Source: Flavobacteriaceae bacterium (lineage in GTDB: Bacteria > Bacteroidota > Bacteroidia > Flavobacteriales > Flavobacteriaceae). Taken from it: a stretch of 17,206 nucleotides of DNA. Under the pieces are notes generated by a model, which saw only the letters and a list, made by a program, of their open reading frames with translations, was not told where the DNA came from and ran no database searches. Positions 598 to 6,796 of this stretch are shown one piece after another (position 1 is the first letter of the stretch; every line of letters starts with the position of its first letter). The stretch lies in NCBI GenBank assembly GCA_013003145.1, contig JABDLH010000262.1:1-17206 (forward strand), read 5' to 3'. A program made the translations under genes and the position numbers.

Positions 598-906
598 CTA
601 CTGCTCTAGCCAGTTACCTTGTTCGTCAGCATACAATGTACCTGTGGTACCGTCTTGCAGAGATACTTCCAGTTTAAACTGGTTTTCCTCGTTCTTGTAT
701 GCTTTATCGATAGTCGCAGTTGGGTAGTTTTTCTCTACTGCATCCGATACTGCTTGTGGAACTTCTTCCACGGCGATTTCAGAATAATTATCCTGAGCAG
801 TTGCTACTACTTCAGTTCCTTCTCCTTGAACGGATTGGGTATCCTGCTGTGCAAATGCGGTTAAACTACCTAGTGATAATACTGCTGCAAACATTAGCTT
901 TTTCAT
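598..906 (-). CDS. Secreted PepSY-like (DUF2874-type) small protein, copy A
   Basis: A 102-residue exported protein. The start chosen is the ATG at 906, because the protein then begins MKKLMFAAVLSLGSLTAFAQ, a complete signal peptide with likely cleavage after AFA. An ATG 27 bp further upstream would put extra charged residues in front of it. The mature part has an acidic low-complexity linker (about residues 20-40), then a PepSY-like fold with VPQAVSDAVEKNYPTA (helix) and strands ending LYADEQGNWLEQ. The family is common in Bacteroidetes as short periplasmic proteins of unknown role; no catalytic residues are visible. It is a tandem paralog of the gene at 1261-1572, with near-identical signal peptide and C-terminus. 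The promoter looks sigma-54 dependent (960-974), with an upstream palindrome at 1078-1100. Confidence 0.85.
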   Translation of the reverse strand: MKKLMFAAVLSLGSLTAFAQQDTQSVQGEGTEVVATAQDNYSEIAVEEVPQAVSDAVEKNYPTATIDKAYKNEENQFKLEVSLQDGTTGTLYADEQGNWLEQ

Positions 907-959
907 ATTGTGTGTTTTAAGATTAAACTTCATTATTAATTGAATTCCCTATACCTAAT

Positions 960-974
960 GCTATAATAATACCA
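960..974 (-). promoter_or_regulatory. Sigma-54-like -24/-12 promoter of PepSY copy A
   Basis: Read on the minus strand the element is TGGTATTATTATAGC. The invariant GG (-24) and GC (-12) are present at the canonical spacing of the TGGCAC-N5-TTGC consensus; the other positions are only partly matched. It lies 68 bp before the start codon, giving a leader of about 42 nt. No TAnnTTTG element is present between the gene and the upstream palindrome. The matching layout at copy B raises confidence. Confidence 0.5.
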
Positions 975-1077
975 AAATGAAATCAAGGATACACATTGAG
1001 GTAACAACCTGTTTTTCAGTTAATTAAGTAATTTCTTGTTTTTCTATCCACGTGTAATACTGTGATCCCTATGCACA

Positions 1078-1100
1078 AAGTGTGTAATAATTACACACTT
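1078..1100. promoter_or_regulatory. Palindromic operator/enhancer site upstream of PepSY copy A
   Basis: A perfect inverted repeat of 11-bp arms (AAGTGTGTAAT / ATTACACACTT) around one central A. It lies 172 bp before the start codon of copy A and about 104 bp upstream of the -24 element, the usual distance for a bacterial enhancer-binding protein. The same GTGTGTAA half-site palindrome occurs at 1744-1770 at the same distance from copy B. A weaker half-site-like stretch, GTGTAATACTGTG, lies at 1052-1064. The rest of 907-1260 holds nothing else recognisable apart from the terminator at 1188-1209. Confidence 0.7.
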
Positions 1101-1187
1101 AAAAAGTGGCAGAAGCCGAAGGATCATAACAGGGAAGCATAGTCGTGGATACATTAGGGGAGGAGACCAGCCTACTGCAAAAAGAAA

Positions 1188-1209
1188 AGCCCCGGGTTAA
1201 CCCGGGGCT
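1188..1209 (-). terminator. Terminator of PepSY copy B (possibly bidirectional)
   Basis: A 22-bp perfect palindrome (AGCCCCGGG, TTAA, CCCGGGGCT) lies about 52 bp past the stop at 1261. On the minus strand it is followed by TTTCTTTTTGC. On the plus strand CTCTTTTAC follows, so it could also stop transcription entering from the left. Confidence 0.75.
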
Positions 1210-1260
1210 CTTTTACTAACTAATCAGTATAATCATTTGCGCTTCGCTATGAAGCCGGTA

Positions 1261-1572
1261 TTACATGTCTAGCCAGTTACCTTCACTATCTGCATACAGT
1301 TCTGAGGTACTTCCATCTTCCAGAGTTACCTGCAGTTTGTACTGCTCTTCTTCATTTACGAAGGCGTTATCAATCTCAGCGTTTGGGAAATCCCTAGTTA
1401 AAGCCTCGGTAATTGCAGCCGGTACTTCACTTAATTCGATCGCTGAAAAGTCTTCCTGAACTTCTGCAGTAGCAGCAACTTCAGTATCAACATTGATGTC
1501 TGCTTCAGTCTCCTGGGCGAAAGCTGTTAAACTTCCCAGAGACAATACGGTCATAAATAATATCTTTTTCAT
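1261..1572 (-). CDS. Secreted PepSY-like (DUF2874-type) small protein, copy B
   Basis: A 103-residue exported protein and close paralog of the gene at 598-906. The ATG at 1572 is chosen because it starts directly at the signal peptide MKKILFMTVLSLGSLTAFAQ. A longer frame to 1686 would read through the sigma-54-like promoter and add a non-signal-like leader. After an acidic linker the PepSY-like part contains VPAAITEALTRDFPNAEID and ends YADSEGNWLDM, parallel to copy A. The family is known mainly as periplasmic proteins without an assigned activity. The two copies share coding sequence, promoter position, upstream palindrome and terminator arrangement, so the whole unit of about 666 bp looks duplicated, with the linkers diverged most. 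Confidence 0.85.
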   Translation of the reverse strand: MKKILFMTVLSLGSLTAFAQETEADINVDTEVAATAEVQEDFSAIELSEVPAAITEALTRDFPNAEIDNAFVNEEEQYKLQVTLEDGSTSELYADSEGNWLDM

Positions 1573-1626
1573 GTGTTCTGTTTTTAAAATTAAATTAATG
1601 TTTGTTTTGTAATCACTGATACATAC

Positions 1627-1641
1627 GAAAATATAGTGCCA
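1627..1641 (-). promoter_or_regulatory. Sigma-54-like -24/-12 promoter of PepSY copy B
   Basis: The minus-strand element is TGGCACTATATTTTC. The -24 half TGGCAC is a perfect consensus match and the -12 half TTTC differs from TTGC at one position, at the right spacing. It sits 69 bp before the start codon, against 68 bp for copy A. The same stretch contains TATATTTT, one mismatch from a housekeeping -7 box, but no -33 TTG lies 19 bp upstream, so sigma-54 is the better reading. Confidence 0.55.
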
Positions 1642-1743
1642 GTAAGATCTCGACTTTGAAAATATAGTTAGTTCGCTGATTTTCAATCAATTATGATGTA
1701 AAGGGTGGTGAGCTATATCGTTTACCAATGGGTAAAACACAGG

Positions 1744-1770
1744 AAAAGTGTGTAATACTTACACACTTTT
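1744..1770. promoter_or_regulatory. Palindromic operator/enhancer site upstream of PepSY copy B
   Basis: A perfect inverted repeat with 12-bp arms (AAAAGTGTGTAA / TTACACACTTTT) around TAC. The core GTGTGTAA-N3-TTACACAC is shared with the site at 1078-1100 apart from central bases. It begins 172 bp before the start codon and about 103 bp upstream of the -24 element. A second, different inverted repeat (TTTACC-AATG-GGTAAA, 1721-1736) sits 7 bp away on the promoter side. Confidence 0.7.
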
Positions 1771-1796: not shown

Positions 1797-3338
1797 TTAA
1801 CGCACCTGGTGAGCAGGTTTTAAAAGGTCGTTCACCGTCTTTACCGGGTTAAATGTCTCCAGGGCCACCTCGACAAAGATGGTGTTCCAAAAAGCCATGG
1901 CTCCATTCCACAAACCGGGTAATTCCAAAGCTTTAAGTTTCTGGCCTTCTTTGGTCTTCTGCGTGATAAAGGCCAATTGGGAGTTCACGTAATTAGGAAG
2001 GTGAAATTTCTCACCCCGGTGATCTTTGACGGAGCATACCAGGTCTACAGGGTTAAAGTGGGTCGCATCCCTGAAGATGGAATGCTGCTTATCGTTTTTT
2101 GTATCTACCTGGGCAGACTCGATGATCTGAAGCGATACATTGTTATGATCATCCCTGATCCAGAATGGTCCTCCTCCCGGCTCCCCTTCATTCTTCACCA
2201 TTCCGCATACGCGGATAGGACGGTTTATCTTGTCTCTCAGGATCTCTATTTGTTGTGCAGCGCTGTATCCCTGGAACTTTTCCGTAAACCTGACATTCAA
2301 CTTATTTTCCAGGAATTCCCTGATCTCTTTCAACTGTTCTCCATTAAGTTCACCCTCCTGCAGCATTGCCGCATATTTAAAAGCCTGTTCCTGTACTTGC
2401 AACAAAAGCCCTGCCAGGAGCTTTTTAGAGCGGATAACCTCGCCTGCATGCTCCGGGACCACTACATTATCTATGTTCTTAATAAAGATGAGGTCTGCCT
2501 CCTGTTCATCGAGGTTCTCTATCAGTGCCCCATGACCGCCGGGTCTGAAGAGAATACTTCCATCCTCCTCCCGGAAGGGTTCGTTCTCCATAGTAACGGC
2601 AATAGTATCGGTTGATGGTTTCTGGTAGGAGTAGCTTATGTTAAACGAAGTCTGGGTCTGGCCGGACAGCCTGTCCTTTACCGCACTGAATTCATTATTG
2701 AAGAGTTCTCCGTGTTGTTCGGATATGGTGAAGTGCAGGCTGGCGCTATTATCCTGGCTTGCATAGGCAGCTCCTTCTTTCAGGTGCTCCTCGAAGGGAG
2801 TGGCCAGATAATCCCTGTAATTATGAAAGGGCAATAGTCCTTTTGGATAAAACCCATAGTTCAGTTTATCTTCCTCAAGCATCTCTGCCACGAAAAGAAA
2901 GACCTCTTCGTCCTTGGAATTTACTTTTCCTTTTATCCTATTCCTGATCATGGTGTAAAATGGAAAATCGGTAATCCCATCCACAAATCTTTTCATCGCC
3001 TTATCGCCGGTGCGTTCAAAATAATCATCCAGGGTTTCTTCATGTGGATCATATTCTGAAAGGAAATTGAATAATGCCTTGAACATACGGGAAGCGGCCC
3101 CTGATGCCGGGACAAACTTCAGCAGCTCCTTTCCCTTTTTATTCTTCTCGAAAAACTGAACGTATTCACTTTCTTCCGCCTCGCTAAGCTTAAGGATACC
3201 ATCATCGACCACCGCAGCCTTTTCCAGTTCCACAAAGGGAATCCCGGCTTTAAACATATCTATCTGTTCACGGACTTTCTTTTCAGAAATTCCCCTGGCT
3301 TTAAATTGTTTCTGATCTTTTTCTGTGAATGTCGTCAT
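1797..3338 (-). CDS. DUF4301 family protein
   Basis: A 513-residue cytosolic protein of the Bacteroidetes-specific DUF4301 family, at the usual family length. Recognisable blocks are the N-terminal ARGISEKKVREQIDMFKAG, FVPASGAASRMFKALF (about residues 75-91), RPGGHGALIENLDEQEADL, FIKNIDNVV and CGMVKNEGEPGGGPFW. These are the glycine-rich, conserved stretches expected in a nucleotide- or sugar-phosphate-handling enzyme, but the function is not established and I do not assign one. The ATG overlaps the TGA of the upstream kinase gene (ATGA), which indicates translational coupling. It is the last gene of the five-gene run. A 7-bp hairpin overlaps its stop codon, but no convincing terminator follows before the palindrome at 1744-1770. 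Confidence 0.9.
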   Translation of the reverse strand: MTTFTEKDQKQFKARGISEKKVREQIDMFKAGIPFVELEKAAVVDDGILKLSEAEESEYVQFFEKNKKGKELLKFVPASGAASRMFKALFNFLSEYDPHEETLDDYFERTGDKAMKRFVDGITDFPFYTMIRNRIKGKVNSKDEEVFLFVAEMLEEDKLNYGFYPKGLLPFHNYRDYLATPFEEHLKEGAAYASQDNSASLHFTISEQHGELFNNEFSAVKDRLSGQTQTSFNISYSYQKPSTDTIAVTMENEPFREEDGSILFRPGGHGALIENLDEQEADLIFIKNIDNVVVPEHAGEVIRSKKLLAGLLLQVQEQAFKYAAMLQEGELNGEQLKEIREFLENKLNVRFTEKFQGYSAAQQIEILRDKINRPIRVCGMVKNEGEPGGGPFWIRDDHNNVSLQIIESAQVDTKNDKQHSIFRDATHFNPVDLVCSVKDHRGEKFHLPNYVNSQLAFITQKTKEGQKLKALELPGLWNGAMAFWNTIFVEVALETFNPVKTVNDLLKPAHQVR

Positions 3339-5414: not shown

Positions 5415-5422
5415 TACCTTTG
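5415..5422 (+). promoter_or_regulatory. Candidate -7 element (TACCTTTG) for ahcY
   Basis: TACCTTTG matches the Bacteroidetes -7 consensus TAnnTTTG. It would give a leader of about 50 nt before the ATG at 5480. No TTG lies 19 bp upstream, so the -33 element is missing or weak. Confidence 0.4.
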
Positions 5423-5479
5423 TTTTCGCTGTTTCAGCACGAAAATGGCTCTTTAACGAAAGTAAAAATAAAAAAGGAT

Positions 5480-6796
<1,317 letters not shown>

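Follow-up and report, generated by a model that had tools for sequence, protein, structure and literature searches.

The window analyzed here is the entire contig C166 (JABDLH010000262.1), 17,206 nucleotides from a Flavobacteriaceae bacterium whose genome bin amounts to 2.17 Mb at 68% completeness. Near one end it carries two adjacent paralogous genes for small PepSY-like proteins, both on the minus strand: a proximal gene at 598-906, encoding 102 residues with an apparent signal peptide (judged by eye) and one PepSY-like unit, and a distal paralogue at 1261-1572, encoding 103 residues. Beyond the proximal gene, at 2-316 on the same strand, lies the receiver domain that begins an NtrC-type activator gene; the gene ends at the contig edge, and its product is the probable regulator of the pair. 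An earlier note made from the sequence alone had given each PepSY-like gene a palindrome, a -24/-12 promoter element and a terminator of its own, and had proposed that an enhancer-binding protein acts there on sigma-54 to govern an envelope-response regulon. Most of that anatomy stands, including the separate terminators, seen as terminator-like hairpins on the minus strand at 1185-1212 behind the distal gene and at 419-449 behind the proximal one. The case developed below is that these parts probably form a small regulatory module acting mainly on its own locus.

The palindrome, GTGTGTAA-N3-TTACACAC, is present in two exact copies, at 1080-1098 ahead of the proximal gene and at 1748-1766 ahead of the distal gene, each a candidate activator site. 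That both genes carry it was correctly noted before, and it is beyond chance by shuffling: allowing 3 mismatches, the window has 2 matches, where shuffled sequence has 0.03 on average and as many as 2 in only 1 of 200 shuffles. When 2 mismatches are allowed, the two copies are the sole matches in the bin. The finer measurements needed some correction, since the palindrome starts put at 172 base pairs (bp) before the start codons have their near edges at 173 and 175 bp, and of the arms given as 11 and 12 bp, the proximal one is indeed 11 bp, around a single central base, while the distal one is 13 bp. Secondary half-sites on the minus strand accompany both copies, with ATCACA and TTACACG at 1051-1066, between the proximal palindrome and its promoter and conserved in the genus, and TTACCCA and GGTAAACG at 1719-1735 for the distal promoter. 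A consensus of 25 sequences has a TTACACA..TATACA-like block at about 22 and about 33 bp past the palindrome, as expected if the activator is oligomeric. The palindrome at 1080-1098 is kept with 1 mismatch in both sister genomes, G160 and G340, which belong to the same genus as the genome of the window.

Conservation extends well beyond the genus. A blind search with the 21-mer palindrome at up to 2 mismatches, using no gene information, found it in 23 of 149 genomes of the family, against 3 of 149 for a control with the reversed pattern. Leaving out the window's own genome, 22 genomes have 24 sites between them, of which 16 lie ahead of a PepSY-like gene; among the sites with 0 or 1 mismatch the count is 8 of 8. 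A combined pattern, consisting of the palindrome followed by TGGYAY-N5-TTYC, was run on 397 genomes and matched in 27 (three of them of the window's own genus), against 3 for its control; 22 of the 27 matches stand directly before a PepSY-like open reading frame (ORF) with profile support. A few sites have other surroundings. In L119 the pattern lies ahead of the activator gene and there is no PepSY-like ORF; in L122 a PepSY-like gene begins about 600 bp further on; in L137 one sits just before the site; in L124 (genome G089) the palindrome and TGG, at an off-step distance of 117, precede a gene that looks by eye like a resistance-nodulation-division (RND) efflux adaptor; and in L128 nothing clear follows. 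For L119, L122, L137 and L024 (7150-7400), where no PepSY-like ORF directly follows the site, decayed genes or small RNAs are a possible reading.

The promoter elements were also located as claimed, with TGG 68 and 69 bp ahead of the two ATG codons: TGGTATTATTATAGC at 960-974 for the proximal gene and TGGCACTATATTTTC at 1627-1641 for the distal gene, both on the minus strand. The TGG-N10-GC form ascribed to both holds for the proximal promoter; the distal one reads TGG-N10-TC, with TC in place of GC at -13/-12. We then considered 43 distinct regions upstream of PepSY-like genes, selected by activator neighborhood or palindrome and not by promoter. A -24/-12-like element occurs in 34 of them, whereas 200 resamples averaged 0.3 and never exceeded 2. 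GG at -25/-24 in a TGGYAY context is found in both promoters of the window and in 37 of the 43 regions. The 6 regions without a -24 match are the second and third copies of L021 and the second copy of L040, which lie close behind another PepSY gene; L015 (1657), where the upstream region is partly unsequenced; and L046 and L102 (1960), for which we have no explanation. Anchored on TGG, the 37 regions give the consensus TTTGGCAY..TTTTTTCT.TA, with C at -12 in 34 and T in 3, the TGG with C at -12 having been preferred where there were two. Since the combined pattern requires C at -12, its matches cannot be used to judge that base. The sigma-54 reading also requires rpoN, for which the window's genome has one match.

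A further constraint comes from the distance between palindrome and promoter, measured from the first base of the palindrome to TGG. It could be taken in the 34 regions of 43 that have both a TGG and a palindrome with at most 4 mismatches; the 9 left out are the six without TGG and L014 4963, L022 5313 and L108 86, whose palindromes are poorer. The spacing falls at 112-115 in 6 regions, 123-126 in 21, 136-139 in 6, and 94 in the remaining one (L015). Three of the 34 regions have two TGGs, of which, by a rule of our own, the one with C at -12 was taken; if the downstream TGG is taken instead, 31 of 34 rather than 33 of 34 fall within these windows. Among the combined-pattern matches, for which any distance from 109 to 138 was permitted, the distance is 124-127 or 135-138 in 25 of 27, and 117 and 132 in the others. 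In a phase test no one period in the range from about 11 to 14 bp stood out. Steps of about 12 bp are close to one helical turn, which suggests a looping contact made on one face of the DNA.

What would bind the palindrome is suggested by the neighboring genes. The activator gene of the window breaks off, but a gene on the co-binned contig C263 shares about 139 bp with it, at about 92% identity by eye count, and goes on to encode a sigma-54 AAA+ domain and then a helix like the Fis-type helix of the orthologue L013, in which receiver, sigma-54 AAA+ and Fis-type helix-turn-helix domains are all present. Because the overlap is not identical (about 8% different), C263 is taken as a strain-variant contig and not as the literal remainder of the window's gene. 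On C263 there follow a convergent 823-residue hybrid histidine kinase (HisKA, HATPase and receiver domains, with Hpt below threshold) and then a TonB receptor; the kinase has two apparent membrane segments and, between them, a domain of about 250 residues without a Pfam match (the segments and domain read by eye). G340 and G160 have the intact order, namely the gene found at 1797-3338 in the window, two PepSY-like genes, activator, convergent kinase and TonB receptor, the last being identified from the C263 copy. The best 80 of 578 activator relatives were kept and locus counts were made on the first 34 (L013-L046). Of these, 22 have a convergent kinase and 5 have it on the same strand, upstream; near the activators of the other 7, some on cut contigs, no kinase was found. 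PepSY-like genes precede the activator in 10 of the 34, which includes 9 of the 11 loci titled as Flavobacteriaceae; of the two exceptions, L018 shows no PepSY-like gene and L019 begins at the activator gene. A GSFTGA loop, of the GxFTGA type, is present in 15 of 15 activator loci checked.

Two further associations point to this activator. When the same 149 genomes were searched for the sensor domain of the kinase, it was found in 22 of the 23 with the palindrome and in 25 of the 126 others (Fisher p 2.5e-12, with kinship among genomes ignored). The other association is between the recognition helix and the site. In 36 activator loci the residue before RKTLY is T in 10, N in one and D in 25. 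All 10 T-type loci fit TGTGTAA better than TGTGGAA (0-3 mismatches), and the single N-type locus does likewise; of the D-type loci, 4 of 25 have a clear TGTGGAA site (0-1 mismatch), L039 and L046 are ties, and L036 leans weakly to TGTGGAA. The D-type site is the Bacteroidales variant TGTGGAA-N3-TTCCACA, which in L024, L027 and L028 follows the activator gene and in L022, with 1 mismatch, precedes it. A PepSY-like gene follows the variant site in L022 and L027; L024 has no such ORF, and L028 ends at the contig edge. An exact Bacteroides-type pattern (GTGTGGAA palindrome plus TTGGCA) matched 0 of 296 genomes of the phylum, so that the variant rests on these four contigs. The genomic linkage, the co-occurrence with the kinase and the match between helix and site are suggestive, though not proof, that the neighboring activator binds the palindrome.

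Taken together, these observations make it probable, at roughly 80% in our estimate, that the locus is a compact, local two-component sigma-54 module resembling ZraPSR, with the PepSY-like proteins as its output. The membrane hybrid histidine kinase would sense some condition and hand phosphate to the adjacent NtrC-type response regulator. Once active, the regulator would oligomerize on the palindrome and on the TTACACA/TATACA half-sites, and DNA looping would bring it to RNA polymerase with sigma-54 at the TGG 112-139 bp away. The small secreted PepSY-like proteins would thereby be turned on, in the window from a separate promoter, with a separate terminator, for each. The parts of this scheme that can be read directly from the DNA are its anatomy, its conservation, the restricted spacing, the genomic linkage and the co-occurrence of kinase and palindrome. 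The earlier proposal of an enhancer-binding protein working with sigma-54 is thus supported by the presence of rpoN, by a neighbor of receiver-AAA-Fis type and by palindrome, distance and TGG, palindrome and promoter alike being kept across genera.

Several observations weigh against this module. The base at -13 in the 37 regions is T in 26, C in 7, G in 3 and A in 1, and canonical sigma-54 promoters have GC at -13/-12. The promoters of groES in the same genome set read TGGCAY-AATTTCTG, and of the 8 readable ones (of 10) 5 retain GC, 3 of these 5 being of the window's own genus, while the PepSY-like promoters mostly do not; the -24 block is therefore common to both and the -13 base is different. 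(groES is a sigma-54-motif gene in Flavobacterium psychrophilum according to PMC9723704. TGACA/TGTCA elements recur, by eye, ahead of its sigma-54-like promoter in L144-L149, L151 and L152 and are possibly the site of another activator.) Because palindromes with as many as 4 mismatches were admitted, the spacing set may include some chance matches, and all the association tests ignore kinship. Nor is the linkage complete: for 8 of the 24 palindromes no PepSY-like gene follows, 5 of the 27 combined-pattern matches are not directly before a PepSY-like ORF, 25 of the 47 genomes with the kinase lack the palindrome at the threshold used, and 18 of 25 D-type loci have no clear site, L038 among them leaning weakly to TGTGTAA. 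Finally, the window's own activator gene is incomplete, and the C263 copy that extends it is the variant one.

There are rival readings of what the PepSY-like proteins do. Both are apparently secreted, judging by eye from their N-termini. Against PF11396 (PepSY_like) they score 24.2 and 18.9 bits, under the gathering cut-off of 28.3, as do three scanned relatives; at the level of the family profile there are matches to solved PepSY-like structures (3db7, E 3e-6; 3u1w, 1.2e-5; 3due, 1.6e-5). A predicted model has the order E-H-E-E-E over residues 42-94, with a predicted local distance difference test (pLDDT) score of about 90 over residues 41-100 and 74 overall. Its best three fold matches are Bacteroides periplasmic PepSY-like proteins, 3elg (two chains) and 4dsd, at probability 0.90-0.97 and weak E values of 0.12-0.16; none of the 672 matches of the model reaches E <= 0.001. 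These profile and fold searches, leading as they do to the PF11396 family, leave it quite possible, at somewhat short of even odds, that the proteins inhibit or chaperone an envelope protein without any feedback on the kinase. On the other side, linkage of kinase, activator and PepSY genes in a circuit with almost a single target is what would be expected of accessory feedback proteins, and by analogy with ZraP and CpxP we tentatively suggest that they may be periplasmic feedback ligands or inhibitors of the kinase. The fuller proposition is doubtful: a closed loop, widespread in Flavobacteriaceae and found in a variant form in Bacteroidales (TGTGGAA, D-type helix), whose PepSY-like proteins would be both the main output and a ligand modulating the kinase, and whose promoters would make up a sigma-54 class of their own, having T or C and not G at -13.

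The pair itself is old. The proximal and distal paralogues are 53% identical, and in a tree of 34 copies the distal copy of the window clusters, with support of 93/90, with the distal copies of L013, L014, L100, L109 and L115, in a group that also holds the copy of L102 at 2417 and a single proximal copy, from L100; the tree does not resolve the other proximal copies. On this grouping of distal copies across genera a recent duplication was rejected. Later, separate duplications of PepSY-like genes are seen in Polaribacter and Wenyingzhuangia.

A wide envelope-response regulon run through the palindrome, as the earlier note had it, is improbable. In its favor, G030 and G050 have sites before PepSY-like genes on contigs other than that of the kinase, the L124 match precedes the efflux adaptor-like gene, and the sigma-54 motif of F. 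psychrophilum precedes genes for chaperones, gliding and exported proteins (PMC9723704). Against it, G160 and G340 have two sites each at up to 1 mismatch, all at the PepSY locus, and when 3 mismatches are allowed the site counts in seven genomes are 4-9, as against 4-11 for the reversed-pattern control. With two close sites per sister genome and the rest at control level, the circuit would be mainly local, and we rejected the wide regulon on these counts.

Poorer still are the prospects for palindromes that serve as intrinsic terminators, or as sites for an unrelated repressor, with a coincidental TGG. The distal palindrome (1748-1766) does form a hairpin with a weak T tail just behind the gene at 1797-3338, and relatives such as L100 lengthen the palindrome into a longer stem. 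The proximal palindrome, however, sits past a separate terminator, and the stepped spacing to TGG, the conserved extra half-sites and the co-occurring kinase would all go unexplained; a palindrome that is only a terminator was rejected on the spacing and on the proximal site's separate terminator. Least credible is that the primary sigma factor drives the genes while the palindrome region merely modulates, which would suit the lack of the usual G at -13 in most copies but was rejected because the sigma-A -7 box TAnnTTTG (so described in PMC9723704) occurs in 0 of the 43 regions, below a resampled mean of 3.5, and because the conserved blocks are TGGYAY and C at -12.

Two observations concern the assembly. 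Positions 1-140 of the window and 1-140 of C263 (L143) are two copies, about 92% identical, of one gene stretch, and their presence in one bin indicates that the bin mixes strain variants. Elsewhere in the window, an apparent adenosylhomocysteinase (by eye) is split into adjacent plus-strand ORFs at 5420-6454 and 6473-6796, suggesting a frameshift or assembly error.

The value of the local module is that sequence allows an activator to be proposed along with its DNA site, promoter type and target, and that the spacing rule makes clear predictions. It would also place flavobacterial PepSY-like proteins in a regulatory context, none having turned up in our literature search; nor did the search, which left most subscription journals outside its reach, find anything tying PepSY-like genes to sigma-54 or to this activator. 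The experimental sigma-54 promoter map of F. psychrophilum (motif SM4), with its -24/-12 promoters, one sigma-54 and three PF00158 proteins, pairs no activator with a target in the text available and so leaves that pairing open (PMC9723704). The window's genome is similar in having one rpoN and three strong PF00158 matches (228-242 bits), plus five weak ones (20-36 bits). The targets listed for F. psychrophilum are different, being chaperones, proteases, gliding and exported proteins, and the word PepSY is absent from the main text (PMC9723704). In Bacteroides thetaiotaomicron, the adjoining PepSY-like genes BT_0922-0923 are listed together with a PAS-domain sensor kinase in an iron and colitis study, whose available text states no link to sigma-54 or to this activator (PMC10434189). 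The PF11396 PepSY_like (BVU2987) family is related through the profile matches (3db7, 3u1w and 3due) and through the Bacteroides proteins that best match the model, though the proteins here have about 100 residues, a single unit and individual scores under the Pfam cut-off. The closest parallel in circuit design is ZraPSR of E. coli, in which a sensor kinase and a response regulator work with a small protein of the periplasm whose zinc-bound form represses the operon (PMC10848872). The likeness is in the set of sensor kinase, sigma-54 response regulator and small periplasmic protein, and CpxP-CpxAR is a functional analogue. The kinase here, unlike that of ZraPSR, is a hybrid with a receiver and a probable Hpt domain and is convergent, and the activator orthologue L013 scores 375 bits where the ZraR equivalog cut-off is 760. 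The product differs as well, since ZraP is a helical zinc protein, whereas here the product is PepSY-like and comes as two paralogues with separate promoters.
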